DNA of 46,966 bases from an uncultured Opitutia bacterium. Lineage in GTDB: Bacteria; Verrucomicrobiota; Verrucomicrobiia; Opitutales; Opitutaceae. The notes beneath the pieces were generated by a model that worked only from the letters and a program-made list of their open reading frames with translations, was not told where the DNA came from and ran no database searches. The stretch is taken from contig CAIUOU010000106.1 in assembly GCA_903900845.1 (NCBI GenBank), positions 1-46,966 of the forward strand, written 5' to 3'. Below, piece after piece: positions 177 to 38,561 of this stretch (the stretch's first letter is position 1; each line of letters begins with the position of its first letter). The position numbers and the translations under genes were made by a program.

Positions 177-761
177 TCAGCCGCCCTCCGCACGCGCCCG
201 GCGCCGCCGCAGCGCGTGCCACACCGTCGGCATCTCGCCCCCGTGATCCGGCAACACCAGCGCGATCGCGATCTCCTCCAACCCGGCCAGCACCAGCCAG
301 ACGATCGCCGCGTGGAAAGGCGCCGCCGTACCTCCCGACAACAGCGGCACAAGCGTCAGCGGACATGCCACCGCCCCGGCCTTGGAGGCCCACGTGTGGT
401 AGCAGGGCGCGCGGCCCAGCCGCACGAATCCGTGGACGATCACCGCGAGGAACGCCGCGAGGCCGGTCACCACCCAGGGCAACTCCCGCCGCATCACGTC
501 GGGCCACAGGAGCGCGATGCCCCAGACCCCGGCCACGAGCGTCACGTAGTCCGCGGCGCTGTCGAGTTTGCGCCCGAACTCCGAGAAGGCCTTGAGCCGG
601 CGCGCCAGGAAACCGTCCAGCGCGTCCGTCGCCAGCGCCGCCGCGATCAGCGCCGTGAACCACCACCGCGAACCCGCCAAGGCGGCGGCCAGCACGGCCG
701 GCATCAGCGCGATGCGGGTCGCCGTGAGGAGATTGGGCCAGAACCGGGGGTCGATGCGCAT
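177..761 (-). CDS. CDP-alcohol phosphatidyltransferase family protein
   Basis: A 194-residue integral membrane protein that should transfer a phosphatidyl group from CDP-diacylglycerol to an alcohol in phospholipid synthesis at the inner membrane. The family signature D-G-x2-A-R-x8-G-x3-D-x3-D is complete: D49 G50, A53 R54, G63, D67, D71, with a further Asp at 46. Several hydrophobic segments follow (about 75-100, 135-170), consistent with six membrane helices. The length fits PgsA/PssA-type enzymes, but the acceptor (glycerol phosphate, serine, inositol phosphate) cannot be read from the sequence. The ATG start lies 22 bases after the stop of the upstream metallophosphoesterase, so the two are probably cotranscribed. 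The C-terminus is Arg-rich. Confidence 0.88.
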   Translation of the reverse strand: MRIDPRFWPNLLTATRIALMPAVLAAALAGSRWWFTALIAAALATDALDGFLARRLKAFSEFGRKLDSAADYVTLVAGVWGIALLWPDVMRRELPWVVTGLAAFLAVIVHGFVRLGRAPCYHTWASKAGAVACPLTLVPLLSGGTAAPFHAAIVWLVLAGLEEIAIALVLPDHGGEMPTVWHALRRRRARAEGG

Positions 762-1370: not shown

Positions 1371-4300
1371 ATGCCCACCCTCCGTCTCCTCCTGCCCTGC
1401 GCCCTCCTCACCGCCGCGCTCCCGGCCGCGCCGGCGCCGCGACCCCTCTTCGACGGCCGCACCCTGGACGGATGGGAAGGTGACGCGCGCAGCTGGCGCG
1501 TGGAGGCAGGCGCCATCACCGGTGAGATCGCCGCGGGCGCGACGCTGGCACGGAACGAGTTCCTGTACTGGCGCGGCGAAGTCGCCGACTTCGAGCTCAC
1601 CGCCGAGTTCCGGATCAGCGGGGATGCCAGCGCGAACTCCGGCCTCCAGTTCCGCTCGCGGCGCGAACCCGACGGACACGCCGCCGGCTACCAGGCCGAC
1701 CTGGATCTGGGGCGGACCTGGCTCGGACGGCTTTACGAAGAGCACGGGCGCAAGCTGCTCGTCGAACGCGGCGACCGCGTCTCGATCGCTCCGGACGGCC
1801 GGCGCTGGAGCGAGAAATTCGGCGAGCCGGCCGATTACGCCGCGCTCCTCCGGCCCGCGCCCGCCTGGAACACCTACCGCGTCACCGCACGCGGACCGCA
1901 CATCGAACTGTGGCTCAACGGCACGCGCGTCGCCGTGCTCGATGACCACCAGACGGGGGCCGCGGCACACCGCGGGCTACTCGCGTTCCAGCTGCACAGC
2001 GGCCCCGGGCCGGTGAAGGTGCAGTTCCGCGATATCCACCTCACCGATCTCGGAGCCACCGAGGCGCCGCCCGCGCGTCCCGCCGCGCAGGCCGCGGCGA
2101 AGGCGCCCGCGATCGACCCCAACATCGGAGCGGTGCGCAAGAACGGCGACCCTCCCCTGCGCCGCAACGCCGGCGTCGATGACCTAACCCGGCTCCACGC
2201 CAGTCCCGTGCTCTGGCACCTCCGCGATAATCCCGCGAAGCCGTCCGCGGTCGCGAATCCCGCCGCGCAGAAACTCGTCGCGGGACTGAAGCTCGTGCAC
2301 GGCTTCCAGGCCGAGCTTGTCGCCGCCGAGCCCGGCATCCGCCAGCCGGTCGCGTTCGCCTTCGACGACCGCGGGCGCATCTGGGTCGCCGAGGCGCACG
2401 GTTATCCCAACCGCCAGCCCGAGGGACAGGGTCGCGACCGCATCATCATCCTGGAGGACAGCGATGGCGACGGTGAGTTCGAGACGCGCAAGGTTTTCGC
2501 CGAGAACCTCAACCTCGTGAGCGGTCTCGAGGTCGGATTCGGCGGCGTGTGGGTCGGCGCCGCGCCCCACCTGCTGTTCATCCCTGACCACGATGGCGAC
2601 GACCGGCCCGACGGCCCGGCGCGGGTCCTGCTCGACGGCTGGGGATTCCAGGACACGCACGAGACGCTCAACAGCTTCACCTGGGGCGTCGACGGCTGGC
2701 TCTACGGGTGCCACGGCGTCTTCACGTTCTCGAACGTCGGCAAACCGGGCGATCCGGCGGCCGGGCGCCAGAAGATCCGCGCGGGCGTGTGGCGTTACCA
2801 TCCGGTGCGCCACGAGTTCGAGGTCTTCGCGCATGGCACGAGCAATCCGTGGGGACTCGATTTCAACGCCGAGGGCCATCTCTTCATGACCCATTGCCGC
2901 AGCTTCTGGGGCGGCGGCGGCACGACCTACGTCATCCGCAACGCCCATTACTGGAACCAGGCCAACAACGACTACGCGCCGTGGATCTCCAACCGCGGCC
3001 CCGACTTCGCGCCCGGCCTGCGCAATTACCTGCTCGCGTCCGCGCGCTACGACAGCGGCGAGGGCGGCGCCGGCGCCCCCGGCACCTCCGCGGTGTACGG
3101 CGGGCACTCGCACGTCGGCACCATGATCTATCTCGGTGACAACTGGCCCGCCGTCTACCGCGACCACCTGTTCACCCACAATCTCCACGGGCACCAGATC
3201 AACCACCAGGTCAACGTCCGCGCCGGCTCCGCCTACGAGACTTTCCACGGTGGCCATGACGTGCTCTTCGCACCCGACGCCACCTACCTGCCCGTCGACC
3301 TGCAGTATGGGCCAGACGGCGCGGTCTACGTCATCGACTGGAGCGACATCCAGCACTGCCACAACCCGCGCGACGAGGTGTGGGATCGCTCCAACGGCCG
3401 CCTTTACCGCGTATCCTGGGCCGCCACCTGGCGCCCCGCGAAGGTGAACCTCGGCGCCCGTTCCGACACCGAGCTCGCCGCGCTCCACCTGCACCGCAGC
3501 GAATGGCACGTGCGCGTCGCCCGTCGTCTCCTGCAGCACCGCGCCGCCCAACGCGCCCTCGAACCCGCCGCGGTCGCCGCCCTGCGCCGCCAGGCCGCGA
3601 ACACCGCCGACGAGGTGTCCACACAGCTCCGCGCCCTCTGGACACTCCACGCAACCCGCAACCTCGACGACGCCTTGCTCGGGTCCGCCCTGGGCCACGC
3701 CTCCGGGACCGTGCGAGCCTGGGCCGTGCAACTCGCCACCGAGCGGCCGGACAAACTCCGCTTGTCCGCGGACCAACTCGCGGCCCTCGCGCGCACGGAT
3801 GCCTCGCCCGCGGTGCGCCTCGCCGTCGCCGCCGCCATCCCCGCCTTGCCCGTCGCGGAACGCTGGATACCCGCCGCGGCGCTCGCCAACCGCGGCGAGG
3901 ACAACGGCGACCGCTTCCTGCCGAAGATGACGTGGTTCGCCCTCGCTCCCGGAGTGGGCGGCGACCTCGCCCGCGCGCTCGAACTCGCCGCCGCCACTCC
4001 GCTGCGCGAGGTCGCCGATTCAATCCTCTGGTTCGTCTCGCGTACCGCCGAAGGACGCGAACAGGTCGCCGCCCGCCTCGCCGCGTGGCCGGCGGAGACC
4101 GCCGCCCGCGCCCTCCGCGTACTCGCCTTTTCGCTCGAGAACGACGCGGGGCTCACCGCGCCGCTCTCATGGCCCGCCGCGGCGCGGCGTTTCGCCGACT
4201 CCAAGGATCCGGGCCTTCGCGGCGCCGTCGAGCAGCTCTCGGCCCTCTTCGGCGACAAGTCTGTGCTCGGCCCGGTCCGCACCCGGCTGGCCGACGCCAC

Positions 4301-5159
4301 CACCCCGCTCGTGGAGCGCCGCCGCGCCCTCGACTTGCTGCGCCGCGCCGGCGACACCGAGTCCGCGGCCCTGCTGGTCAGCCTGCTCGAGGACCGGGAC
4401 CTGCGCTCCGCCGTGATCCCACTGCTAGGCATCTCGGCCGACAACGCGCGCGCGGCCGAGGGCCTGATCACCCGCTTCGGCTCATTCGGCGGCGCCGACC
4501 GCAACGCCGCCCTGGCCGCCTTCACCAGCCGCCCCGCGCTCGCCCTGCCTCTGCTTCGCGCGGTCGAGGCCGGCCGTTTCGATCGCCAGTTCCTCACCGC
4601 CCTCCACGCCCGCCAGCTGCGCCGGTTGAACGACCCGCAGGTCAACGCAGCGCTCGACCGGGTTTGGGGCCGCGCCAGCGAATCCTCGGCTGACGCCAAG
4701 GCCACCATCGCGCGGATCCGCGACGTCTACCGCAACGCCCCGGTGTGGTCCTATGAGCTCGAGGCCGGCCGCAAGGTCTACGAGCGCGCCTGCTCCGCCT
4801 GCCATGCCATGGGAGGAAGCTCCGGTGGCAAACTCGGCCCCGACCTCGGCGGCACTTGGCGCAACGGGCTCGATTATTTCCTCGAGAACATCATCGACCC
4901 CAACGCCGTCGTCGGCGCCGCCTACGAGATGCACGTCCTCACCAAGCGCGACGGCACCGTGCTTTCGGGCATGATAGACCGCGAGACCGAGACCGCGGTT
5001 GTGATCCGCGGGGTGACGGAGACGGTCACCGTGGCCAAGTCCGAGATCCGCGAACGGCAGAAAACCACGCAGTCGCTGATGCCGGCCGGCCTCCTCGAGG
5101 CGCTGCCCGAGCGCGAGACCGTCGAACTGCTCAAGTTTCTCACCACCGAGCCGCGCTGA
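1371..5159 (+). CDS. secreted PVC-type cytochrome c with 3-keto-glycoside hydrolase-like (DUF1080) and dehydrogenase propeller domains
   Basis: A 1262-residue protein. Residues 1-20 are a signal peptide. About 25-222 is a DUF1080/3-keto-disaccharide hydrolase domain, opening with LFDGRTLDGW and ending with the VQFRDIHL strand. A Pro/Ala linker follows. About 300-660 is the PVC membrane-bound dehydrogenase propeller related to PQQ sugar dehydrogenases (FDDRGRIWVAEAHGYPN, YGPDGAVYVIDWSD). About 680-1110 is an Ala/Leu-rich HEAT-like helical region. The C-terminus is the PVC haem domain, with CSACH at 1141-1145 and the typical SLMPAGLLEAL segment near 1237. In characterised systems DUF1080 proteins hydrolyse 3-keto-glycosides made by an oxidoreductase. 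Having the hydrolase, dehydrogenase and electron acceptor in one periplasmic chain suggests oxidation and cleavage of a glycoside by one protein; that is inference. It stands alone, divergent from the phosphoesterase pair. Confidence 0.9.
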   Translation: MPTLRLLLPCALLTAALPAAPAPRPLFDGRTLDGWEGDARSWRVEAGAITGEIAAGATLARNEFLYWRGEVADFELTAEFRISGDASANSGLQFRSRREPDGHAAGYQADLDLGRTWLGRLYEEHGRKLLVERGDRVSIAPDGRRWSEKFGEPADYAALLRPAPAWNTYRVTARGPHIELWLNGTRVAVLDDHQTGAAAHRGLLAFQLHSGPGPVKVQFRDIHLTDLGATEAPPARPAAQAAAKAPAIDPNIGAVRKNGDPPLRRNAGVDDLTRLHASPVLWHLRDNPAKPSAVANPAAQKLVAGLKLVHGFQAELVAAEPGIRQPVAFAFDDRGRIWVAEAHGYPNRQPEGQGRDRIIILEDSDGDGEFETRKVFAENLNLVSGLEVGFGGVWVGAAPHLLFIPDHDGDDRPDGPARVLLDGWGFQDTHETLNSFTWGVDGWLYGCHGVFTFSNVGKPGDPAAGRQKIRAGVWRYHPVRHEFEVFAHGTSNPWGLDFNAEGHLFMTHCRSFWGGGGTTYVIRNAHYWNQANNDYAPWISNRGPDFAPGLRNYLLASARYDSGEGGAGAPGTSAVYGGHSHVGTMIYLGDNWPAVYRDHLFTHNLHGHQINHQVNVRAGSAYETFHGGHDVLFAPDATYLPVDLQYGPDGAVYVIDWSDIQHCHNPRDEVWDRSNGRLYRVSWAATWRPAKVNLGARSDTELAALHLHRSEWHVRVARRLLQHRAAQRALEPAAVAALRRQAANTADEVSTQLRALWTLHATRNLDDALLGSALGHASGTVRAWAVQLATERPDKLRLSADQLAALARTDASPAVRLAVAAAIPALPVAERWIPAAALANRGEDNGDRFLPKMTWFALAPGVGGDLARALELAAATPLREVADSILWFVSRTAEGREQVAARLAAWPAETAARALRVLAFSLENDAGLTAPLSWPAAARRFADSKDPGLRGAVEQLSALFGDKSVLGPVRTRLADATTPLVERRRALDLLRRAGDTESAALLVSLLEDRDLRSAVIPLLGISADNARAAEGLITRFGSFGGADRNAALAAFTSRPALALPLLRAVEAGRFDRQFLTALHARQLRRLNDPQVNAALDRVWGRASESSADAKATIARIRDVYRNAPVWSYELEAGRKVYERACSACHAMGGSSGGKLGPDLGGTWRNGLDYFLENIIDPNAVVGAAYEMHVLTKRDGTVLSGMIDRETETAVVIRGVTETVTVAKSEIRERQKTTQSLMPAGLLEALPERETVELLKFLTTEPR

Positions 5160-5189: not shown

Positions 5190-5969
5190 TCAGGGAGCGC
5201 GGCCGGCGAGGAAGGCCTGCAGCGCGTCCAGCCGGTCCGCGCCGATGACATCGACGCCGGCATCGGCCAGCTGCGTCCACGCCGCCGGCGAGTCGGGCAC
5301 GTTCCAGAAGCGTAGGCGGCGGCCGCGCGCCCGGGCCTTCGCCACCCACTCCCCAAGGGCGGTCCGCACCTCCGCCGGCATCGGCCCGCTCCAATTCCAC
5401 GTCGAGAACGTCCGCCAGTTCTCGCTGATCCAGGGAATGAGCTCGGCCGGCGCGTCGGAATCGAGGTGCGCCTTCCGCCCGTCCATGGCGGCGAAGCGCA
5501 CCGCCTGCGCGCGCAGCGCGGCCTCGTCGCGGTTGCCCGAGACGATCACCGTCATGGCCCGCGGAGTCCTCGTCCCGCCCCGGAACTCCGTCAGCAGTTC
5601 CGCATAGCCGGCGAGAACCGCGTGGAGCGCGGCGTAGGTCGGCCCGGCGGCTGACTTCACGTCGACCAGCAGCGTGAACCCATCCAGCCCGGGCTGCACC
5701 CGCCCGCCGTTCGCGCGCACGCGCTCGCGCAGCGGATCGAGGTAGAGGGACTGCAGCGTGCGGCCGGGCCGGACGTCCTTGCGGTCGTGCGCCACGAGCA
5801 GTTCGCCGTCGACCAGCCAGATGTCGGCCTCGACGCTCCCGAAACCGCGCGCGAGGGCGTCGAGTAGCGGCCGCGGATGCTCGTAGTCGTTGTGGGCGTG
5901 GGCGAGCGGGGCACCGCGCAACCCGGCGGCGGACAAGAAAAGGACGGCGGCGATCAGGCGCGCGATCAT
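5190..5969 (-). CDS. exported GDPD/PI-PLC-like phosphodiesterase
   Basis: A 259-residue protein with a clear signal peptide (residues 1-19, ending LRGAP). The mature protein starts with the motif AHAHNDYEHPRPLLDAL. This, with FGSVEADIWLVDGELLVAHD, gives the His-Asn, Glu-x-Asp and His residues of the metal-dependent TIM-barrel glycerophosphodiester and phosphatidylinositol phosphodiesterases. DVK follows in LLVDVKSA, as expected for a barrel strand. Bacterial members with this HNDYEHPRPL opening are mostly uncharacterised periplasmic proteins and may act on lipid head groups. It is the last gene of a minus-strand series, separated from the AEC carrier by a 220-base gap carrying short phrase-like repeats. 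It is convergent with the cytochrome fusion, 30 bases away. Confidence 0.8.
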   Translation of the reverse strand: MIARLIAAVLFLSAAGLRGAPLAHAHNDYEHPRPLLDALARGFGSVEADIWLVDGELLVAHDRKDVRPGRTLQSLYLDPLRERVRANGGRVQPGLDGFTLLVDVKSAAGPTYAALHAVLAGYAELLTEFRGGTRTPRAMTVIVSGNRDEAALRAQAVRFAAMDGRKAHLDSDAPAELIPWISENWRTFSTWNWSGPMPAEVRTALGEWVAKARARGRRLRFWNVPDSPAAWTQLADAGVDVIGADRLDALQAFLAGRAP

Positions 5970-6067
5970 GCCGCACCCTGGGCCGCCGGCCGCCCCGCCC
6001 GCAAGCCCGCGCGCGGCGAACAGGTCACCCGCTGGACGGCGGAGCCGGGAGCGCGGAGGGTCCGGAG

Positions 6068-6164
6068 ATCACGGAGGCCACGGAGGTCGAGAGCTTCGTG
6101 GTCTCCCACGTTTCCCCAGTCTCCTCCGTCTCCGACGTCCTCCAAGTCTCCGTGCTCCGTGTCC
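6068..6164. repeat. inverted pair of short-period CCGTG-type phrase repeats
   Basis: In the 220-base gap before the phosphodiesterase, two copies of a CACGGAGG-like unit nine bases apart (6068-6086) face two copies of TCCGTG seven bases apart (6147-6164), with related CTCC-rich sequence between. The same unit recurs in other gaps of this window. I see no gene in the gap. Confidence 0.5.
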
Positions 6165-6189
6165 CCGGTTGGAATCTTCCGGCGGCGCC

Positions 6190-7089
6190 TCAGCCGCCGA
6201 TCCAGCCGAGGCCGGCGCGCAGCCAGAGCGGGATGGTGAGGATGCCGACGGCGGTGGTGCCCACGACGATCTGCACCGCGGTGCGCGGATGCCCGCCGTA
6301 AAGCCGCGCGAGGATGACGGGTACCATCGCGGATGGCATGGCGGCCTGGACGACCAGCACGCGCTTCAGCTCCACCGAGCAGGGCAACAAGAGAGCGAGC
6401 CCGATGATCGCGAGCGGCAGCACGGCCAGTCGCAGGGCGCCGGCGGCGCAGGAGACGCGGGCATCGAAAAGCTCGCGCGGCGAGGACAGGTGCCCCGCGA
6501 GGCTCACGCCGGTCATCACGAGCCCGAGCGGGATGCCGCACAACGCGAGCGCGTGCACGGCGTCGAGCAGCACCTTGGGCAGGTGCGAAAACACCCCGGC
6601 GAGATTGCAGCCGATGGCGACGACGAGCGTGACCAGCACGGGGCTCAGCAGTTTCCGCCAGCCGTCGCGCAGCGACTGCCCGCTCAGCACCAGCAGCCCG
6701 ACGGTCCAGATCGCCGCCTCGACCCCGACATTGTGCACGAGGAGCAGCCCGCGGCTCTGCGGCCCCCAGATCGCCTCCATGATTGGCAACGGCAGGAAGC
6801 CATAGTTGGCGATGCCGGCCGTGAGCGCGAAGGTGCGGAGACCGGTGCCGACCTGGAGTCCGATCGCGCGGGCCACCGCGCGGCAGAACAGGATGCCCGC
6901 GGCGGTGACGCCGAAGCCCAGCAGCGGCGGCAACAGAAGATTGCCGGGCGTGCGCAAAGCCGAGTTGCCCGCCACGGCCTCGAACGTGAGGCACGGGTAG
7001 CATACATTCACGGTGAACCGGATGAGGCTCGTCTCCGCCTCACCCTCGATCCAATGCACCCGCCGAACGGCGACGCCCACGCCGATCAA
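6190..7089 (-). CDS. AEC-family (auxin efflux carrier) transporter
   Basis: At least 299 residues, with about ten hydrophobic segments arranged as in AEC/PIN-type permeases (two five-helix bundles around a polar loop). The family exports or exchanges organic acids and other small anions across the inner membrane; the substrate is unknown here. The start is uncertain. The first conventional start is TTG at 7089, which falls inside the first membrane helix. The frame stays open 16 codons further upstream and encodes IPTYLQLLFLVLPVFLL, exactly what AEC N-termini look like. The only candidate there is ATT at 7137. The stop of the upstream flavoprotein gene (7171-7173) closes this frame. The genes are adjacent on the same strand and probably cotranscribed. 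Confidence 0.82.
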   Translation of the reverse strand: MIGVGVAVRRVHWIEGEAETSLIRFTVNVCYPCLTFEAVAGNSALRTPGNLLLPPLLGFGVTAAGILFCRAVARAIGLQVGTGLRTFALTAGIANYGFLPLPIMEAIWGPQSRGLLLVHNVGVEAAIWTVGLLVLSGQSLRDGWRKLLSPVLVTLVVAIGCNLAGVFSHLPKVLLDAVHALALCGIPLGLVMTGVSLAGHLSSPRELFDARVSCAAGALRLAVLPLAIIGLALLLPCSVELKRVLVVQAAMPSAMVPVILARLYGGHPRTAVQIVVGTTAVGILTIPLWLRAGLGWIGG

Positions 7090-7170
7090 AAGGAAGACCG
7101 GCAGGACGAGGAACAGCAGCTGGAGGTAGGTGGGAATAGACGAACGGAATGGGCCGGGACGGCGGCGCGT

Positions 7171-8436
7171 TCAAGCCGGGGCGGCATCACCGGCCGGGCC
7201 GGCTCCCGCGGCCATCGCACGTCCCGCGATCCAACCCGTGGTCCAGGCGGCCTGGAAGTTGAAGCCTCCGGTAACCCCGTCGATGTCGAGCACCTCGCCG
7301 GCGAAATGCAGCCCGGGTCGCAGGCGGCTCTCCATCGTGCGGAAGTCGACCTCGCTGAGGCGCACGCCACCGCACGTCACGAACTCATCCTTGAACAGGC
7401 TCTTGCCCTCGATCTTGAAGTCGGCGGCGGTGATCTGCCCGGCGAGCGCGCCGAGCGCGGCGTTGCCGGCCGAGGTCCACGTCGCGACGGGCGCGAGGCC
7501 CGCCGCGGCGACCAGCCGCTCCCACAGCCGCAGCGGCAGACCGAGCGGGCACCAGGTGGCGAGCTGCTTGCGCGGATTGGCCGCCCTAGCCGCCGACAAC
7601 TCGCGGACGACGTCCTCTCGCGTGCGTCCCGGCGCAAAGCTGACGCGGACGACAAACTGGTAGTTGCGGGAGGCCAGCTCGCGCGCACCCCACGCGGAGA
7701 GTTTCAGGATAACCGGGCCGCTCAGGCCCCAGTGCGTGATGAGCATCGGACCGCGCTCGGCGAGTTTCGTGCCGGCGACGACGGCGGCCGCGTCGGCCAC
7801 GCTCAGACCGGAGAGTCCGACCAGGCGCGGATCGTCGCTGTGAAAGGTGAACAGCGAGGGCACCAGCGGCTCGATCGTGTGGCCGAAGGACTCCGCGATG
7901 GTGAAGCCGGCCGAGGACCGGTTGCCGCCGGTCGCGATCAGCAAGCGCTCGCAGCGCACCTCGGAGCCATCCGTGAGCGTGAGCCAGAAGGATCCGGGGC
8001 CCGCCGCCTCCGCGCGGCGCACGCCGCTGGTCGTGAGCACCCGCACACCGGCCGTATCCGCCGCACGCCGGAGACAGTCGATGATCGTGGCGGAGTCGTC
8101 GGTGACGGGAAACATGCGGCCGTCGTCCTCCACCTTGGTCTCGACGCCACGCGCCGCGAACCATGAGACGGTGTCGCGCGGCTGCCAGCGGTGGAAGGCG
8201 CCGATCAACTCGCGGCCGCCGCGCGGGTAGCGGCGCACGAGTTCACGCGGCTCGAAGCAGGCGTGGGTGACGTTGCAGCGGCCGCCGCCCGAGACGCGCA
8301 CCTTGGCGAGCGGATGGGCCGTCGCCTCGTGCAACGTGACCTCACCCGCCGCGCCGAGCGCCTCCGCGCAGGCGATCGCCGCGAAAAAACCGGCGGCGCC
8401 GCCGCCGGCGATCACCACCCGCCGCTTTTCCTGCAT
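7171..8436 (-). CDS. HI0933/BaiN-family FAD-dependent oxidoreductase
   Basis: A 421-residue flavoprotein. The N-terminus VVIAGGGAAGFFAA is the dinucleotide-binding GxGxxG of the Rossmann fold, and KVRVSGGGRCNVTH is the hallmark of the HI0933 family. A mid-protein IATGGNRSSAGF and the C-terminal LHFAGEVLDIDGVTGGFNFQ complete the FAD site. Family members are cytoplasmic and include enzymes acting on aminoacetone or reducing bile-acid intermediates, but most have no known substrate. I chose ATG at 8436 because the Rossmann strand begins six residues later; the open frame continues upstream through a low-complexity stretch and an A-tract that belong to the terminator region. The AEC gene follows downstream with almost no gap. 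Confidence 0.88.
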   Translation of the reverse strand: MQEKRRVVIAGGGAAGFFAAIACAEALGAAGEVTLHEATAHPLAKVRVSGGGRCNVTHACFEPRELVRRYPRGGRELIGAFHRWQPRDTVSWFAARGVETKVEDDGRMFPVTDDSATIIDCLRRAADTAGVRVLTTSGVRRAEAAGPGSFWLTLTDGSEVRCERLLIATGGNRSSAGFTIAESFGHTIEPLVPSLFTFHSDDPRLVGLSGLSVADAAAVVAGTKLAERGPMLITHWGLSGPVILKLSAWGARELASRNYQFVVRVSFAPGRTREDVVRELSAARAANPRKQLATWCPLGLPLRLWERLVAAAGLAPVATWTSAGNAALGALAGQITAADFKIEGKSLFKDEFVTCGGVRLSEVDFRTMESRLRPGLHFAGEVLDIDGVTGGFNFQAAWTTGWIAGRAMAAGAGPAGDAAPA

Positions 8437-8499
8437 GGCGCGACGTTGCCCGCGCCCGCCGTCATGGAAAGGGCAAACTCCGGGCGCGTCGCGTGGACG

Positions 8500-8535
8500 A
8501 AAAAAGGCCGCCGCGGGCTGCGATCCGCGGCGGCC
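8500..8535 (-). terminator. rho-independent terminator of the Spy-like gene
   Basis: A perfect 11-bp stem, GGCCGCCGCGG (8506-8516) with CCGCGGCGGCC (8525-8535), and an 8-base loop. On the minus strand it is followed at once by six T residues (A-tract 8500-8505). It lies 35 bases past the stop of the Spy-like gene, so that gene is likely a single transcription unit. Confidence 0.85.
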
Positions 8536-8570
8536 AACTAACACCAACCCCTGACAAGTTCAGCGGCGGC

Positions 8571-8981
8571 TCAGTTGCCGCCCTTGCGGCCGCCGCCCCC
8601 TCCGGGAGCGCCGCGGCCTTGGCCCATCTGGGCCATCATTTCGTCGTACTTCTTCTGCTGCTCCTCGGTGAGGACCGCGCGCACGGCGCGACCGGACTCG
8701 CGCATCAGCTCCATGCCCTTCTCGCGACGCTCGTCGTCGGACAAGGCCTGCATCTTCTCGGAAGTCTTGGCGTAGATATCCTTGATCTTCGCCTTCTGGG
8801 TATCGGTGAGCTTACCCAACGCCTCCTCAAGCCGCTCGATGCGCTGCTCGGCGCTCATCATCCCGCGACCACCACCGCCGCCGGGGCCACGGCCCTTCTT
8901 GGCGTCCTGGGCATTGAGGAGAGGCAGCGCGGCGACCGTACCGAGCGAGGCAAGGAGAAGCAGGAGCGAGCGAATTTTCAT
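8571..8981 (-). CDS. Spy/CpxP-like periplasmic protein with Gly/Arg-rich tails
   Basis: A 136-residue protein: signal peptide 1-25 (ending LPLLNAQ), a Gly-rich segment (GRGPGGGGGRGMM), a helical core of about 75 residues, then a second Gly-rich tail (RGAPGGGGGRKGGN). The core carries two LTxxQ motifs, LTDTQ and LTEEQ, the signature of the Spy/CpxP fold, with an EERLEEALG-like amphipathic helix before them. Spy is a periplasmic holdase chaperone and CpxP a stress sensor. Small LTxxQ proteins of this kind are common in Verrucomicrobia and lack assigned roles. ATG at 8981 precedes the signal peptide directly. A hairpin terminator follows, and the gene is divergent from the zincin gene. Confidence 0.78.
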   Translation of the reverse strand: MKIRSLLLLLASLGTVAALPLLNAQDAKKGRGPGGGGGRGMMSAEQRIERLEEALGKLTDTQKAKIKDIYAKTSEKMQALSDDERREKGMELMRESGRAVRAVLTEEQQKKYDEMMAQMGQGRGAPGGGGGRKGGN

Positions 8982-9065
8982 GACGGTAAACGGGGCTTGG
9001 GGAGGTTTCGGCGCCACCTGCCGCGGGGCGCGCAAAGGGCAAGACGGGCCCGTCGGGGAAGAGTT

Positions 9066-9086
9066 GCGGTTTTTTTCAAAAACCGC
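9066..9086. promoter_or_regulatory. small perfect hairpin in the divergent gap
   Basis: GCGGTTTTT (9066-9074) pairs with AAAAACCGC (9078-9086) around a 3-base loop. It lies between the divergent Spy-like and zincin genes, about 85 bases upstream of the Spy-like start. It could be an operator-like site or chance; nothing else is recognisable in this 260-base gap. Confidence 0.3.
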
Positions 9087-9241
9087 GGCGCCGGCGCTTT
9101 TCGGATTTGCCGCGGGAGACCGGCTCGCCGACCTCTCCCTCATGAACCTCGAGCGCGGCCGACGACGGCGAAACGATCTCCCGCGGGGCCGCGGCGCGAG
9201 GCGACGCCGCGGGGTTGGATAGGCCCGAGGCGACGGCATCC

Positions 9242-9613
9242 ATGGACCACGAACTCCCGACCAAGCTGGCCGCCGACGCCGTCGGCGCGGCGCAGCGGCG
9301 GCTGCCACCCGAGCTGCGCGCCCTCGCGCGCGGCGTCGCCGTCCACTACGAACGCAAGCCCCGGGCCGATGTCATCGACGAGGGCTTCCCGCCCGACATC
9401 CTCGGCCTGTTCACTGGCGCGGCCCACGGCACCGAGCTGAGCGCCGACAATCTCACTCCCCCTCAAATTTTGCTCTACCTGGAGAATCTTTGGGAATTCG
9501 CCGAAGGCTCCGAGGACGTGTTCCGGGAGGAAGTCGAACGCACGTATCTCCATGAGCTCGGCCATTATCTGGGATGGGATGAAGACGACGTCGCGGCCCG
9601 CGGCCTCGATTGA
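9242..9613 (+). CDS. minimal zincin-like metallopeptidase (PF06262 family)
   Basis: A 123-residue cytosolic protein with the zinc-protease motif HELGH at 104-108, followed by YLGWDEDD, which is how the small PF06262 family ends. The preceding segment VIDEGFPPDILGLFTG and the helix PPQILLYLENLWEFAEGS match the family core. Members of this minimal zincin family are widespread and conserved, but their physiological substrate is not established. ATG at 9242 gives the usual family length; an upstream TTG at 9215 would add nine residues of low-complexity sequence. The gene is divergent from the Spy-like gene and followed by the separately promoted SYLF gene. Confidence 0.85.
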   Translation: MDHELPTKLAADAVGAAQRRLPPELRALARGVAVHYERKPRADVIDEGFPPDILGLFTGAAHGTELSADNLTPPQILLYLENLWEFAEGSEDVFREEVERTYLHELGHYLGWDEDDVAARGLD

Positions 9614-9716
9614 GCAGGGCCTCGGTGCGTCCGGGATGGGAACCCGGCGCAATCGGCGCTTTCCAACCGGCCTCGCGTTTGTGTAGTGTCGCCCGCTTCC
9701 GATTTTCCGCTCCGCC

Positions 9717-10394
9717 ATGAAGAAACTCCTGCTCCTCCTGCTCGCCTCCCTGGCGGGCGCCTCGTTCGGCCGAGCCGACACCACGCGCGCGGACCTGGTG
9801 GCCCGGGTAGAGTCCTGCGAGGCGATCCTGCAGGATTTCCAGTCCCGCTCCCGCACCGCGATCCCGCCAGCCGTATGGCAGCGCGCGCGCGCGGTCATCA
9901 TCCTCAACCAGTTCAAGGCCGGCTTCCTTCTGGGCATCCAGGAGGGCTATGGCGTGATCATGGTCAAGCGGGCCGACGGCCGCTGGAGCATCCCGGTGCT
10001 GATCAGCGCGGGCGAGACGAGCCTCGGCTTCCAGCTGGGCGCCAAGGCGGTCGAGAGCGTGTTCATCGTGACCGATGACGCGACCCCGCGCATGCTGTTC
10101 AACCGACGCTTCAATGTCGGCGTCGACGCCAAGGCTGTGATCGGCCCGAAGGCGGCGGAGTCCGAGCGCGTCAACGAGGAGCTGCTGCGCACGCCGATGC
10201 TCGCCTACGTGAAATCGGCCGGCGTGTTCGCCGGCGCGACGGTGAAGGCGGGCCGCATCGCGCGGAACGACAAGGCCAATTTCTCCCTCTACAACACCCG
10301 CTACACCATGCCGGAGCTGCTCTACAGCGACTGGGTGCAGGCGCCCGCGGAGATCCAGCCGCTGATGGCGATGGTGCAGCGTCTCGCGCCCTGA
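9717..10394 (+). CDS. exported SYLF/Ysc84-domain lipid-binding protein
   Basis: A 225-residue protein with signal peptide 1-19 (ending SFGRAD) followed by a full-length SYLF (Ysc84/DUF500) domain. Typical elements are AIPPAVWQRARAVIILNQFK near the start, then FLLGIQEGYGVIMVKRADG, the glycine-rich strands SIPVLISAGETSLGFQLG, and the C-terminal FYN-like SLYNTRYT. SYLF domains bind phosphoinositides in eukaryotes; bacterial exported versions are thought to associate with envelope lipids, but their function is unsettled. It stands alone on the plus strand and is convergent with cinA with only seven bases between stops. Confidence 0.87.
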   Translation: MKKLLLLLLASLAGASFGRADTTRADLVARVESCEAILQDFQSRSRTAIPPAVWQRARAVIILNQFKAGFLLGIQEGYGVIMVKRADGRWSIPVLISAGETSLGFQLGAKAVESVFIVTDDATPRMLFNRRFNVGVDAKAVIGPKAAESERVNEELLRTPMLAYVKSAGVFAGATVKAGRIARNDKANFSLYNTRYTMPELLYSDWVQAPAEIQPLMAMVQRLAP

Positions 10395-14525: not shown

Positions 14526-15862
14526 GCGGCCGCCGGCCGCGTGAGGCGCGCGAGGCGGGCCACGAGGAAAACCGCGGCGAAGGCGAGCCCGCCCGCGATG
14601 CCGACCCAGATGCCGGCGGCGCCGTGGCCCGCCGGGAAACCCAGCCCGTAACCGAGCGGGAGCGCGATGATCCAGTAGGCCACCAGTGTCATCACGGCAG
14701 GGATCCGCGCGTCCATGATCCCGCGGAGCGCCGCCGCCGCGATCACCTGCACGCCGTCGGCCAGCTGGAAAACGGCGGCCACGCCGAGCAGTTGCACCGC
14801 CAAGGCGATGACCGCCGCGTCGTGCACGAAACGCCGCGCGATGAAGTCGCCACCGATCCAGAACACGAGCGCGAAGACGGCCATCACGACGACCCCGAGC
14901 GCGGTGATGCCGAACGCGATGGGCCGCAGGCGGTGGCGCTCGCCCGCGCCGGCCGCGCGGCTCATCCGCATGCCGGCCGCGATCGAGAGGCCGAGCGGCA
15001 CCATGAAGGCGAAGCTCGCGCACGTGATCGCGATCTGGTGCGCCGCGAGCGGCACCGTCCCGAGCCAGCCGACCATGATGCCGGAAAACGCGAAGGCGGT
15101 CGTCTCGAACAGCAGCATGCCCGCCGCCGGGGCTCCCAGACCCAGCATCCGCCGGAAACGTTCGCGTGAAAAGGCCCCGCGCCACGAACGGGGCCACGCC
15201 TCGCGGATGGCCGGGTAGCGCGTGAGCCAAAGAAAGATCACCAGCGCCCCAAGCGTGCGCGAGACGAGCGTGGATATACCCGCCCCGGTGAGGCCCAGCG
15301 CGGGCATGCCCAGGCGACCGTAGATGAAGATCCAGTTGAGCAGCGCGTTCAGACCCACACCGGCCAGCATGATGAACATCGGCACCCAGGGGTGGCCCAT
15401 CGCCTCGGCGAATTGCCGCAAAGCGAGATAGACGAGCACCGGCACGATCGATGCCGCGAAAAGCAGGTAGAACGGCGTGACGATCGCCAACACCTCCGGT
15501 GGCTGGCCGAACCAGTGCAGTTGCGTCGCCAGCAGCGCCATCACGGCGAACTCCGCCACTCCTATCACCAGCGCGAGGGCGAGTCCGTGCCGCAGGTACT
15601 CCGCCGCCTCCGCGGGCTCCCCCGCGCCCCGGGCGCGGGAAACGAAGATGGAGACCGGGATCATCCACCCGATGCCGAACACGTAGAAGATGTTGAAGAT
15701 GTTACCGCCGAAGGCCGAAGCGGCCAGCGGCACCGTGCCGGCGTGCCCGATCATCACGCTGTCTGTCACGCCCATGAGCATCTGGCTCAGCTGCCCGACC
15801 ACGATCGGCGCCGCCAACGCGAGCGTCGGCCTTAGCTCGCGCAGGTAGTCGGAGGACGGCAT
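14522..15862 (-). CDS. MATE-family efflux transporter
   Basis: A 446-residue polytopic membrane protein with twelve predicted helices in two six-helix halves. Diagnostic segments are LAAPIVVGQLSQMLMGVTDSVM in helix 1, SAFGGNIFNIFYVFGIG in helix 2, and the second-half equivalents LGAPAAGMLLFETTAFAFSG and ALRGIMDARIPAVMTLVAYW. MATE proteins (NorM/DinF group) extrude cationic drugs, dyes or metabolites using Na+ or H+ gradients; this sequence does not reveal the substrate. The length is normal. ATG at 15862 directly precedes the conserved first helix. It is divergent from the S9 peptidase gene across an 86-base gap and shares its stop region with the barrel gene. Confidence 0.9.
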   Translation of the reverse strand: MPSSDYLRELRPTLALAAPIVVGQLSQMLMGVTDSVMIGHAGTVPLAASAFGGNIFNIFYVFGIGWMIPVSIFVSRARGAGEPAEAAEYLRHGLALALVIGVAEFAVMALLATQLHWFGQPPEVLAIVTPFYLLFAASIVPVLVYLALRQFAEAMGHPWVPMFIMLAGVGLNALLNWIFIYGRLGMPALGLTGAGISTLVSRTLGALVIFLWLTRYPAIREAWPRSWRGAFSRERFRRMLGLGAPAAGMLLFETTAFAFSGIMVGWLGTVPLAAHQIAITCASFAFMVPLGLSIAAGMRMSRAAGAGERHRLRPIAFGITALGVVVMAVFALVFWIGGDFIARRFVHDAAVIALAVQLLGVAAVFQLADGVQVIAAAALRGIMDARIPAVMTLVAYWIIALPLGYGLGFPAGHGAAGIWVGIAGGLAFAAVFLVARLARLTRPAAA

Positions 15863-15948
15863 CGCGACGAGCCGATGCTAAACCACCCGCGCCGTCGAGC
15901 CCCGCCCCGCGGTTGCCTCCGCCGCGCGGGCGCTGCATGGTCCCCGCC

Positions 15949-18366
15949 ATGCCCCTCTCCCCCGCCCTCCGGCGCGTTCCTCTCCTCCTGATCGCGGCCC
16001 TGCCGCTCACCGCCGCGGACGATCCCGTTTACCGCCGGCCCAGCGCGCCGCTCGCCGCGCTCGTCGACGCCCCCAGCTCGCCCGTGGCCGTGCTGAGCCC
16101 TGATCGCACCCGGCTGCTCCTGCTCGACCGCCCTGAGGCGCCGTCCATCGCCGAACTGGCCCAGCCCGAGTTGAAACTCGCCGGGCTGCGCGTGAACCCC
16201 GCGACCAACGGCCGCAGCCGTGAGGCCACCTACACCGGACTTTCCTTCCAACCGCTGGAGGGCGGCCCCGCGCGCCGCGTGACGGGCCTGCCCACGGGCG
16301 CAAGGATCGCCGGCTACGAGTGGAGCCGGGACGGTCGCCACCTCGCGCTCACCCTGCTGTTCAGTCAGGGCTCGGCGCTCTGGCTGGTCGATGTCGCCAC
16401 CGCCGCGGTCCGCCGCCTCACCGACCCCGTCCTCAACGGCTTCTTCGGCGATCCCGTCGCGTGGCTCGATTCCGAAACGCTGCTCGTCCGTCGCATCCCG
16501 GCCGGCCGCGGACCGGCCCCGGTGGAGCCCGCGGCGCCCGCCGGACCGGTCGTGCAGGAGAGCAAGGGGACGCGCGCGGGCGCGCGCACCTACGACGGGC
16601 TCCTCACCGGCCCGCACGACGAGGCGCTCCTCGATCACTACGGCACCAGCGAGCTTGCGCTCATCGCCCTCGACGGCGCGGAGACCGTGCTGCCCGTGCG
16701 CGGGCTGCTGTCGTCCGTCCTGCCCTCGCCCGACGGCCGGCACTTCATCATCGAGACGCTTCGACGCCCCTATTCCTACCTGGTGCCCGCCAGCCGTTTC
16801 CCGGTCTCGATCGACGTGCATGACCGCGCCGGGCGCCTCGCGCACCGGGTAGCCTCCCTGCCTCTCAATGAGGGCTCCGACAACGGCAGCGTGCGCCCTG
16901 GCCCCCGCGGCGTCGGCTGGCGGGCCGACGCCCCCGCGACGCTCAGCTGGGCGCAGGATCTCGGCCGCGGCGCGAAGCAGCCCGATGGAAAAACCGCGCG
17001 CGACGCCTGGTTCACCCACGCCGCGCCTTTCGCGGGCCAGCCGGTCGAGCTCCAGCGCTTCGAGTACCGCGTGACCGGCGCCAGCTGGGGGGACGACGGG
17101 CTCGCGCTCGTCACCGAGACCTGGACGACCACGCGTGTAACCCGCCTCTGGAACGTCGCCCCCGGGCAGCCCGGCGCCGCGCGCCAGCTGCTCTTCGAGC
17201 GAAAAACCGAGGATCGCTACCGCGATCCGGGCCGGCCCGCGACGGCGCGCAACGCCCTCGGGCGCCTCGTGCTCGCGCGCGGTGCCGGCGGCCGGCTCTT
17301 CCTTCACGGACCGGGCGCGTCGCCCGACGGTGACCGGCCCTTCCTCGACGAGCTTGATCCCGCGACCGGAACCACCCGGCGCCTCTGGCGCTCCACGCCG
17401 CCGCACTACGAGGAGTTCGTCGCGTTCCTCGACGCCGGCTTCACGCGGGCGCTCGTGAGCCGCGAGTCCGCGACCGAGCCGCTCAATTTCCTGGTGCGCG
17501 ATTACGCCACCGGCGCGCTCACGCCGCTGACGTCGAACCGCAACCCGCACCCCGCGTTCAACGACGTGCGCCGCGAGGTGGTGCGCTACCAGCGGCCCGA
17601 CGGCGTGCCGCTCTCGGGCACGCTCCACCTGCCGCCCGGCTGGACGCCCGCGCAGGGTCCGCTGCCGACGCTGCTCTGGGCCTACCCGCGCGAGTTCCTC
17701 GACGCGGAGAGCGCGAGCCAGATGAAGGCGACGCCGGAGCGCTTCGCGCGGGTGAGCCCGAACGGGCCGCTGCCCTTCACGTTGGCGGGCTACGCGGTGT
17801 TCGACGACCCGGCGATGCCCATCATCGCCCCGAAAGGCGGCAAGCCCAACGACGCCTACGTCGAACAGTTGGTGGCCAACGCCCAGGCCGCCGTCGACGA
17901 GTTGGTTCGTCGCGGGGTGACGGATCCGAAGCGCGTCGCGGTGGGCGGCCACAGCTACGGGGCCTTCATGACGGCGAACCTCCTCGCGCACTCGACGCTC
18001 TTCCGCGCCGGCATCGCGCGCAGCGGGGCCTACAACCGCACGCTCACGCCGTTCGGGTTCCAGAGCGAGACGCGCTGGTTCTGGCAGGCGCCGCAGGTGT
18101 ACGCGCAGATGTCGCCCTTCAACCACGCCAATCGCATCAAGGCGCCCATCCTGCTGATCCACGGCGCCAGCGACAACAACTCGGGCACGTTCCCGATCCA
18201 AAGCGAACGCTTCTACGCGGCGCTCAAGGGCCACGGCGCGACCGCCCGCTACGTGGTCCTGCCGCACGAGAGCCACGGCTACCGCGCCCGCGAGAGCCTT
18301 CTGCACGTGCTGTGGGAGACGGAGACGTGGCTCGCCACCCATCTCGCCAAAGCCGGGCCGCCGTGA
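15949..18366 (+). CDS. exported S9-family prolyl-oligopeptidase-like serine peptidase (glutamyl endopeptidase type)
   Basis: An 805-residue protein: signal peptide 1-21 (ending LPLTAADD), a beta-propeller of about 500 residues, and a C-terminal alpha/beta-hydrolase domain. The catalytic triad is visible: S669 in GGHSYGAFM, D742 in HGASDNN and H776 in HESHGYR. The layout and the conserved SETRWFWQAPQVYAQMSPF segment match the S9D group related to plant chloroplast glutamyl endopeptidase. It would cleave short peptides in the periplasm. ATG at 15949 starts the signal peptide; two upstream in-frame ATG codons precede it without improving the fit. The TGA stop overlaps the GTG start of the next gene, so at least two genes are coupled. 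Confidence 0.88.
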   Translation: MPLSPALRRVPLLLIAALPLTAADDPVYRRPSAPLAALVDAPSSPVAVLSPDRTRLLLLDRPEAPSIAELAQPELKLAGLRVNPATNGRSREATYTGLSFQPLEGGPARRVTGLPTGARIAGYEWSRDGRHLALTLLFSQGSALWLVDVATAAVRRLTDPVLNGFFGDPVAWLDSETLLVRRIPAGRGPAPVEPAAPAGPVVQESKGTRAGARTYDGLLTGPHDEALLDHYGTSELALIALDGAETVLPVRGLLSSVLPSPDGRHFIIETLRRPYSYLVPASRFPVSIDVHDRAGRLAHRVASLPLNEGSDNGSVRPGPRGVGWRADAPATLSWAQDLGRGAKQPDGKTARDAWFTHAAPFAGQPVELQRFEYRVTGASWGDDGLALVTETWTTTRVTRLWNVAPGQPGAARQLLFERKTEDRYRDPGRPATARNALGRLVLARGAGGRLFLHGPGASPDGDRPFLDELDPATGTTRRLWRSTPPHYEEFVAFLDAGFTRALVSRESATEPLNFLVRDYATGALTPLTSNRNPHPAFNDVRREVVRYQRPDGVPLSGTLHLPPGWTPAQGPLPTLLWAYPREFLDAESASQMKATPERFARVSPNGPLPFTLAGYAVFDDPAMPIIAPKGGKPNDAYVEQLVANAQAAVDELVRRGVTDPKRVAVGGHSYGAFMTANLLAHSTLFRAGIARSGAYNRTLTPFGFQSETRWFWQAPQVYAQMSPFNHANRIKAPILLIHGASDNNSGTFPIQSERFYAALKGHGATARYVVLPHESHGYRARESLLHVLWETETWLATHLAKAGPP

Positions 18367-30159: not shown

Positions 30160-30233
30160 GCAGGATGAGGCCCGGAAGGGCGGGGTTGAGCGGGAAAAAA
30201 AGCTGCCGACGCGCCAGAAGCAAGGAGTGGTGG

Positions 30234-30261
30234 AGCCACGAACTACACAAAGCGCACGAAA
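30234..30261 (-). repeat. three-unit phrase repeat upstream of the TonB receptor
   Basis: Read on the minus strand it is TTCGTGCGC, TTTGTGTAG and TTCGTGGCT, three units with nine-base period. It is about 75-100 bases before the receptor start and has the same unit structure as repeats at 24774-24800 and 33883-33909. Confidence 0.5.
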
Positions 30262-30440
30262 CCGAACCGGGTGGCCCACGGAATTCTCGGAAAACGCGGA
30301 ATGACCTGCTCCGCCTGATGTATGCGGTCTGAGAGATCCGCGGCTCAACGGATCGGGCTCGGGCGGGAGCGAGGGAGGTTTGATGGAAGGAATCGCCGAC
30401 CGTCCGAGGGAGCCCGCCACAGGCAGGTGGCTACCCTCAA

Positions 30441-30470
30441 CGGCGCGATCGTGGTTCCATGATCGCGCCG
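30441..30470. repeat. strong hairpin in intergenic gap
   Basis: CGGCGCGATC (30441-30450) pairs perfectly with GATCGCGCCG (30461-30470). Including one G-T pair the stem extends to 13 bp with a 4-base loop. No T-tract follows on either strand, so it is not an ordinary terminator. It is 271 bases beyond the neighbouring gene's stop. Confidence 0.55.
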
Positions 30471-30494
30471 CCGTCACGCCGGAGCCCCGAGCTC

Positions 30495-30564
30495 CCAATT
30501 TCCAGATTCCCCCCGTTCTTCGTTACCTCTGTTTTCTCATGTGCCGCGGTTTGGGCCACTCCGC
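30495..30564 (+). repeat. dispersed repeat of about 70 bases, copy 1
   Basis: Aligns without gaps to 33951-34020 with 49 of 70 identical bases by hand count. The best-conserved parts are GTTACCTC and TTGGGCC. A shorter version of its left end is found at 30685-30710 in the same gap. Confidence 0.7.
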
Positions 30565-38400: not shown

Positions 38401-38561
38401 TCCAGATAATCGCCGCTGCCGCCGTGGAGCACCCGGCCCTCGACGACACCGGACGCGCCGGGGCCTTCGGCCGCCCGGAGCGCGGGCGCGGAGAAAAGGC
38501 CGGCAGCAACGATCAAGGCCGCGGCGCAGGCGCGACCCAGGGGCGAACGGGACGAGGTCAT
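35406..38561 (-). CDS. TonB-dependent receptor with N-terminal carboxypeptidase-regulatory-like domain
   Basis: A 1051-residue outer-membrane receptor. The signal peptide is about residues 1-31 (ending ALRAAEG). The N-terminal extension at about 38-118 (VVEGRVLHGGSGDYLENARV, then SDGSFTLAPLPAGTARLRV) is a CarboxypepD-reg-like beta-sandwich, common in SusC-type and other large receptors. The plug follows (about 150-265) with EFMKFLPGVTMEYAGGNARE, ISINGAPAAYVPVTVDGF and RLEVSYSPTPDSPGSALAGSVNM. The barrel ends LWTLGLKGTF with the expected terminal Phe. No SusD gene is adjacent. ATG at 38561 precedes the signal peptide. It is divergent from the Gfo/Idh/MocA gene across 151 bases, so substrate uptake and intracellular oxidation may be co-controlled, as inference. 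Confidence 0.9.
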   Translation of the reverse strand: MTSSRSPLGRACAAALIVAAGLFSAPALRAAEGPGASGVVEGRVLHGGSGDYLENARVALEGTNLEAATRSDGSFTLAPLPAGTARLRVFFTGLAPQVLAVEVPAGATVRRDITLAPAGGRAGETVRLEAFAVAASREMDAAAIAINEQRFASNLRTVVSTDEFGTVAEGHVGEFMKFLPGVTMEYAGGNAREISINGAPAAYVPVTVDGFNLASAVGNGTGRAAAVDMVSINGLSRLEVSYSPTPDSPGSALAGSVNMVSRSAFERARPVFNGSAYVMMRDNRRETHRTAIPRETRTRKVYPGFDFSWVVPINRNLGFSLSGGRTTQYAGQDFSQNTWRGTGAATNGAAFPHTTPDRPYLTAYTVRGGGKETIRNSIAATVDWRLGPRDRLTLALQASTFEENYSQQALTFTINRVPPGAFSPAFTRGDAGAGAGTLQQTNGGTYRFNRTYMPTLTWRHDGPVWKLDAGAGLSRARYTGADIERGMFQNTTAQRTNVAIAFEDIFYLRPGAINVRDALTGVAVDPFSLSSYALTGTTSGIVDSNDRQRTAFANARRDFGGVAPFSLRTGFDVREARRDLRPVTTNYAYVGADGRGSTTPVGSDDGAAPYWATALSERALPWGFPAAQWVSQAKTWEAFRATPSLFTIDQNARYRNQVGASKFASEVVSAAYLRGDLALLNRRLRIVGGLRAEQTNIDAQGPFTDVTRNYQRDAAGRVVTVASPIPADPARRVPAAIFPSGTLGFSQLTYLERGASVEKEYLRLFPNLNVSFNVRDNLILRAARYTSIGRPDFNQYAGGLTLPDVEAPPSRSNLITVNNAAIRPWAAESTNARVEYYFEGVGQVSAGVFRRDFRNFFGGTFFPATSEFLALYGLEPATFERYEVATQENVRGRLRTTGLDFSYKQALTFLPPWARGVQVFVNASAQRATGEAAENFAGYIPRSGSWGFSVTRERWNARVNWNYRGRQRRGAVASGAGIEPGTFNWGSKRLYVDVSGEYSLTRRVALFANLRNLGDATEDQQIAGPSTPAHARFRQRLDFGSLWTLGLKGTF

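Follow-up and report, generated by a model that had tools for sequence, protein, structure and literature searches.

The PVC-type (Planctomycetes, Verrucomicrobia, Chlamydiae) heme-binding CxxCH proteins combine a propeller recognised by TIGR02604 with a haem domain recognised by TIGR02603, and we found no secure substrate for any PVC-type propeller protein in the literature searched. DUF1080 proteins (PF06439), by contrast, have solved members, including BT3469 (4jqt), BT2157 (3osd), 8rr2, 9fbe, 8tda and 8v31 (AL2). In the 3'-ketolactose pathway built from LacABC and a DUF1080 protein, a periplasmic order of C3 oxidation followed by cleavage has been proposed, carried out by the products of separate genes (PMC9007349). 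Here we analyse a stretch of 46,966 nucleotides (the window) from an uncultured Opitutia bacterium of the family Opitutaceae (assembly GCA_903900845.1, contig CAIUOU010000106.1), in which one open reading frame joins a DUF1080 domain to a PVC-type propeller and a c-type haem domain. The window protein thus has the propeller and haem domain of the PVC-type CxxCH proteins but additionally bears DUF1080, and it could follow the order proposed for the LacABC pathway within one polypeptide that uses a propeller. With the solved PF06439 proteins it has in common the domain, the fold and the family-conserved motifs, whereas those chains consist of DUF1080 alone (in tandem in BT3469) and the window copy is fused to a propeller and a haem domain.

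Another described relative is Lac161_ORF7, from DNA assigned to Chthoniobacter, whose layout of TIGR02604, HEAT and haem resembles that of the window protein and for which the accessible text, unlike our annotation, names no DUF1080 (PMC5342196). In that text the protein is reported to free glucose from lactose; it was produced in BL21(DE3)pLysS induced with isopropyl-β-D-thiogalactopyranoside, and two unrelated proteins, one of them a GGDEF protein, had a similar Km (PMC5342196). Because of this source and of the similar Km of the GGDEF protein, we set the result aside as functional proof; the preparations may have contained LacZ carry-over. Apart from this lactose cleavage, we found no published activity for any relative. 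The literature searched yielded no description of the exact DUF1080-propeller-haem fusion, a weak negative given that subscription journals were thinly covered. The families are known; their recurrent combination was not found described there.

Results

The original prediction, made from the letters of the window alone, described a single polypeptide in which a signal peptide, a DUF1080 domain, a PVC-type propeller, a HEAT-like region and a CSACH haem motif follow one another (Table 1). Profile searches with the window protein confirm the DUF1080 domain (PF06439, residues 24-224, E 2.6e-33, 116.1 bits against a cut-off of 26.8), the propeller (TIGR02604, residues 311-682, E 3e-105, 352.6 bits against 122.2; DUF7133, residues 305-682, E 3.8e-67) and an intact c-type haem domain (TIGR02603, residues 1130-1259, E 2.3e-28, 98.9 bits against 68.15) that contains the CSACH motif. 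Two cytochrome c models of Pfam match weakly at the CXXCH, close to their cut-offs. All 16 members of alignment A1, the window protein included, match PF06439, DUF7133, PF00034, TIGR02604 and TIGR02603, so the combination is not due to chance and its presence in a single frame is confirmed. One of the 16, L029, has its DUF1080 at the opposite end. The HEAT-like region fared less well: no Pfam HEAT model matches the window protein, residues 700-1110 included, and HEAT_2 matches two of the 16 A1 members, which makes the label a weak one. At the haem end, the position aligned to M1237 is occupied by M, C or H in three solved dihaem-protein sequences, which we read as a putative series of axial ligands.

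The fusion is shared by many relatives. One scan of genome contigs gave 27 loci, and among loci L009 to L028 DUF1080 precedes the propeller in 19 of 20, the exception being L022. When 121 loci were annotated with purpose-built profiles for domain order, the order DUF1080-propeller-HEAT-haem was found in 25 frames, one of which is the window itself (L036) and three of which (L037, L038 and L039) repeat other contigs, leaving 21 further distinct homologs. Within this survey the haem domain of L016 is truncated by a contig end, L020 and L023 stop ahead of the haem domain, and L044 carries an added FG-GAP part in front. Most fused homologs belong to the family of the window or to organisms named Opitutaceae, Opitutus or Verrucomicrobia, and two (L066 and L067) belong to a different family within the same class. 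Some match to the window protein exists in at least 61 of 100 genomes of the family and at least 72 of 288 genomes of the phylum, lower bounds, since at most 6 and 2 scored candidates per genome, respectively, were counted; they take in DUF1080-only and propeller-only matches. In a propeller tree of 58 rows, 21 fused rows group with L022 and L042, which are unfused, in one clade with a support of 100/100, for which one old gain of DUF1080 followed by two losses would be the simplest history. A further fused row, L080, falls outside this clade on a long branch, a placement of which the tree tool is unsure.

The association of DUF1080 with PVC-type propellers extends beyond the main clade. A planctomycete protein (L029:3798-9077) consists of FG-GAP repeats, propeller, HEAT and haem followed by a C-terminal DUF1080, while at two other loci (L030:5291-9827 and L035:7923-10504) an FG-GAP/propeller gene is immediately preceded by a separate DUF1080 gene, much as if the same parts were unfused. 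The genome to which the window belongs (hereafter its own genome) encodes a second protein with DUF1080 and propeller, on contig C163; of its 19 TIGR02604 genes over the cut-off, these two were seen with DUF1080. There is probably a second N-terminal DUF1080 fusion besides that of the main clade. Four genomes together have 72 DUF1080 genes. Of these, 13 have a PVC gene over the cut-off no farther than 5 kb away when fused ones are included, and 10 form unfused pairs at that distance, against 2.1 on average and at most 8 in 5000 random trials. Neither TIGR02604 rows below the cut-off nor a second DUF1080 match within the same frame enter these pair counts, and the random placement of genes ignores operons and contig ends. 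The own genome has 4/24 unfused pairs (a value as high in 70/5000 trials), and two others have 3/25 (141/5000) and 3/12 (8/5000). Tree, loci and 5-kb pairs agree that DUF1080 and PVC propeller genes recur together, fused or close by, and DUF1080 and PVC cytochromes have been joined more than once. This repeated joining, and the presence of the needed parts in one chain, make a functional link between DUF1080 and the PVC propeller-haem proteins likely.

A separate observation concerns genome G048, where a DUF1080 match and a sub-cut-off TIGR02604 match are adjacent (C1:3995305-3997053), each falling within an open frame that is 1093 residues long. This pair is perhaps a further fusion.

Degradation of DUF1080 residues, which would have told against the original prediction, is not seen in the window protein. 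It retains NSG 89-91, Q93, R95, Q108, D110, E124, W166-N167, N183, Q207 and H209. Of 21 other fused rows, 19 retain both NSG and QxH, as do 19 of 25 further DUF1080 rows, among which is the C-terminal domain of L029. Among those 25, NSG, R95, Q108, W166-N167, N183, Q207 and H209 are each present in at least 22, and Q93, D110 and E124 are less general (15 to 19 rows; D110 15, E124 16). Ratios of nonsynonymous to synonymous substitution rates (dN/dS), which are rough because synonymous sites are near saturation, take the values 0.113 (DUF1080), 0.169 (linker), 0.191 (HEAT-like region), 0.055 (propeller) and 0.037 (haem domain) between the window protein and L009; for DUF1080 they reach 0.146 against L019 and 0.266 against L010. 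The solved structure closest to the predicted DUF1080 model is BT3469 (Z 23.4, 2.3 Å over 184 residues, 30% identity), and the profile of alignment A2 likewise ranks BT3469 (E 5.9e-67) ahead of 8rr2 (9.9e-18). No named activity was found for BT3469, the closest protein by both sequence and fold. Farther off, relatives solved with ligands bear the titles 3-keto-glycoside eliminase/hydratase (8rr2, 9fbe) and 3-keto-2-hydroxy-glucal hydratase (8tda, 8v31), and from these titles the chemistry of the domain would be expected to be elimination and hydration, not plain hydrolysis. The CBM66 structures 4azz and 4b1m also match the DUF1080 part by fold, with BT3469 ahead of them.

For the propeller, a structure model of residues 20-704 was built from 83 aligned rows (mean predicted local distance difference test score (pLDDT) 86.1, predicted template modelling score 0.81), with pLDDT below 50 at residues 240-264, in the linker, and 547-572, in the propeller; a single-sequence model of residues 19-690 (mean pLDDT 34.1) was not usable. 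The nearest fold is that of 3a9g, a sugar dehydrogenase dependent on pyrroloquinoline quinone (PQQ; Z 29.8, 3.1 Å, 297 residues aligned), followed by 2ism (27.5), 7cgz (26.9), 3das (26.7), the AA12 structure 6h7t (26.6), and the PQQ enzymes YliI of E. coli (2g8s, 26.1) and soluble glucose dehydrogenase (sGDH; 1qbi, 25.1); unrelated propellers score about 23. A profile comparison against YliI plus eight relatives gave a probability of 82-92%. A search of PDB sequences with the propeller profile was uninformative, returning generic matches of the WD40, NHL and SEC13 types but none to a sugar dehydrogenase, so the kinship to soluble sugar dehydrogenases, which the original prediction had correctly recognised, rests on profile comparison and fold. 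The GSDH profile (PF07995) does not match the window protein up to E 1. In the own genome a paralogue on contig C151 is over the cut-off for both TIGR02604 and the GSDH family, and GSDH-family genes are present as well (6 match rows). With YliI/Asd, sGDH and AA12 the window protein has in common the propeller fold (Z up to 29.8) and the Asn of the RNPQG motif; unlike them, it has haem in the same chain, no GSDH match in Pfam and none of the three aligned arginines considered below.

Other polar positions of the propeller are strongly conserved. N215 of YliI corresponds to N492 in the profile alignment, and its H147 is no more than one residue away from H430. Across 57 other propeller rows, H430 and N492 are each kept in 55, H664 in 56, and D656 and R677 in all 57; H508, H579, H581, H606, H608 and H626 are not kept in L080 but are present in the other 20 of the 21 fused rows. 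At a guess, these conserved histidines are compatible with a metal site.

Table 1. Features of the fused gene, in window coordinates
Feature	Position	Strand	Basis or remark
Whole gene, open reading frame	1371..5159	+	1262 aa, ATG start
Signal-peptide-like N-terminus, about residues 1-22	1371..1436	+	judged by eye
DUF1080 / 3-keto-disaccharide hydrolase domain, residues 24-224	1440..2042	+	PF06439 match and fold match to 4jqt
NSG motif, residues 89-91	1635..1643	+	kept in 19/21 fused rows
Q207-x-H209	1989..1997	+	both kept in 19/21 fused rows; H209 in 23/25 other DUF1080 rows
Pro/Ala-rich linker of variable length, residues 225-300	2043..2270	+	alignment; pLDDT <50 at residues 240-264
PVC-type propeller (DUF7133/TIGR02604), residues 305-682	2283..3416	+	profile matches and predicted fold
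H430, DTH motif	2658..2660	+	at most one residue from YliI H147; H in 55/57 rows
S491-N492, against YliI R214-N215 (RNPQG motif)	2841..2846	+	Asn retained, Arg replaced
L640 and V642, against YliI R341 and R343	3288..3296	+	profile alignment
D656 (57/57 rows) to H664 (56/57 rows), conserved polar propeller residues	3336..3362	+	
HEAT-like region (weak label), about residues 700-1110	3468..4700	+	HEAT_2 in 2/16 A1 members, not in window protein
TIGR02603 c-type haem domain, residues 1130-1259	4758..5147	+	NCBIfam profile
CSACH haem-attachment motif, residues 1141-1145	4791..4805	+	
M1237, candidate sixth haem ligand	5079..5081	+	alignment with three solved dihaem-protein sequences

Gene neighbourhoods were considered as a functional clue and rejected: ten flanking proteins of homologs belong to mixed families, with matches to subtilase, AAA, sulfatase, YgjP-like, trigger factor, a lectin-like domain and TonB-dependent receptors, and two have no match. 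In the closest relative a TonB-dependent receptor gene (L009:5343-8498) lies directly downstream of the fused gene, and another is near L025; in the window, TonB plug domains are encoded by two genes (27313-30498 and 35406-38561) farther from the fused gene. Elsewhere in the own genome, a GMC oxidoreductase gene and a DUF1080 gene sit on opposite strands (C57:42561-45058), recalling the lactose 3-dehydrogenase pairing. An open frame of 836 residues on the minus strand of the window (15832-18342) matches no Pfam model at E 1 and, the DNA being GC-rich, may have arisen by chance.

Discussion

The explanation that we consider the most likely, with a probability of roughly 0.4, is that the window protein physically couples the cleavage of 3-keto-glycosides to a haem-linked dehydrogenase. 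The data show the domains, their conservation, the predicted fold and the recurrent association; from these we infer that the protein is secreted, that the propeller oxidises its substrate, at C3, that the haem receives the electrons and that DUF1080 takes over the 3-keto product. The protein would be a secreted periplasmic PVC-type cytochrome protein whose propeller acts as a sugar dehydrogenase, or derives from one, with a cofactor other than canonically bound PQQ. Electrons would pass from the propeller to the C-terminal haem, and DUF1080, held on a flexible linker, would cleave the 3-keto-glycoside by elimination and hydration, the fusion keeping the oxidised sugar near the domain that consumes it. 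A fully specified version, in which a non-PQQ and possibly histidine-metal site in the propeller oxidises the glycoside, the haem feeds respiration and DUF1080 eliminates and hydrates, so that a glycosidic bond is cleaved without a classical glycoside hydrolase, is in our judgement rather unlikely. The self-contained glycosidase of the original prediction, which oxidises, drains electrons and cleaves, stands as to its parts in one chain and their recurrent link, but not as to a retained quinone site, and its oxidation step is one of the inferred ones.

Several observations weigh against coupling. R214, R341 and R343 of YliI, which align with PQQ-binding arginines of the Acinetobacter enzyme, are replaced by S491, L640 and V642 in the profile alignment. 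PqqC was not found in the own draft genome by a search that detects it elsewhere: it matches in 8 of 387 genomes of the phylum, six over the cut-off, and is thus able to find its target, although in 19 relatives both PqqC and the control were silent. Hedgehog-interacting protein, which is not known to be an enzyme or to contain PQQ, shares the propeller fold (Z 24.9), and BT3469, the nearest solved DUF1080 protein, is titled merely 'putative glycosyl hydrolase'. L022 and L042 are without DUF1080, yet lie inside the fused clade. In L028 (7819-8412) and L040 (3172-5184, minus strand), which lie in the sister group of the window and L009 in the propeller tree, NSG and QxH are lost and the dN/dS of DUF1080 against the window is the highest among five relatives compared (0.534 and 0.394), so the domain seems dispensable there; with propeller and haem domain still conserved, this looks like a natural case in which one partner decays. 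One of the four genomes, G064, has 0/11 unfused pairs and nothing beyond its fusion. The five near neighbours of the gene in the window (177-761 and 5190-10391) are not sugar-pathway genes according to Pfam. Finally, the low-confidence, disordered linker gives channelling no support; because of this linker, and of the separate pairing of GMC and DUF1080 genes, the fusion does not show C3 oxidation or handover of the product to the attached DUF1080.

The replaced arginines and the fold of Hedgehog-interacting protein would suit a propeller that is a non-oxidising scaffold or ligand-binding domain, with other enzymes, such as GMC or Gfo/Idh dehydrogenases, supplying 3-keto-glycosides for DUF1080 and the haem serving another redox role. 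Such a supplier could be the GMC gene at C57:42561 (-), about 1.5 kb from the DUF1080 gene at C57:44453 (+), a pairing of the kind proposed for lactose use (PMC9007349). We nevertheless regard a scaffold as somewhat unlikely, since H430, N492, D656, H664 and R677, kept in 55 to 57 of 57 rows, suggest an important site, and since the propeller changes slowly (the 0.055 above) and keeps a lasting physical tie to the haem domain. A genuine dehydrogenase with a divergent site for PQQ, which can be scavenged, is very unlikely on our estimate. PQQ enzymes are its nearest folds, YliI uses PQQ in a host, E. coli, that is not known to make PQQ, and the own genome has GSDH-family genes; on the other hand, the three arginines are replaced, R occupies position 640 in 17 of 36 propeller-only rows but in one of 21 fused rows (L080, outside the clade), and neither PqqC in the own draft genome nor a GSDH match in the window protein was found.

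Alternatively, DUF1080 might not be an enzyme of 3-keto-glycosides at all: it might bind carbohydrate, as a module directing a PVC dehydrogenase to glycans, or be a direct hydrolase. Beyond the CBM66 fold matches, an overlap of DUF1080 with CBM66 is pointed out in PMC5673643, and a Thermogutta DUF1080 protein is reported to hydrolyse xanthan and glucans (PMC10881899), for which oxidation would not be needed. Some orthologs lack DUF1080 or have a degraded copy, and the domain is found at either end of the protein. We think this quite unlikely in view of the closest fold, that of BT3469 with CBM66 behind, and of the NSG and QxH motifs, kept in most fused and other DUF1080 rows. The original assignment of DUF1080 as a domain cleaving 3-keto-glycosides draws support from the titles of solved relatives and the kept motifs, and loses some to the orthologs just mentioned.

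That PVC-type propellers are repeatedly fused or adjacent to a domain whose 3-keto-glycoside chemistry is known provides a testable guess at the substrates of some of them. If the coupled reading is right, glycan breakdown would be tied directly to respiration within one protein; on the fully specified version, the window protein would belong to a large class of PVC-phylum cytochromes that process glycans in a redox-linked way.

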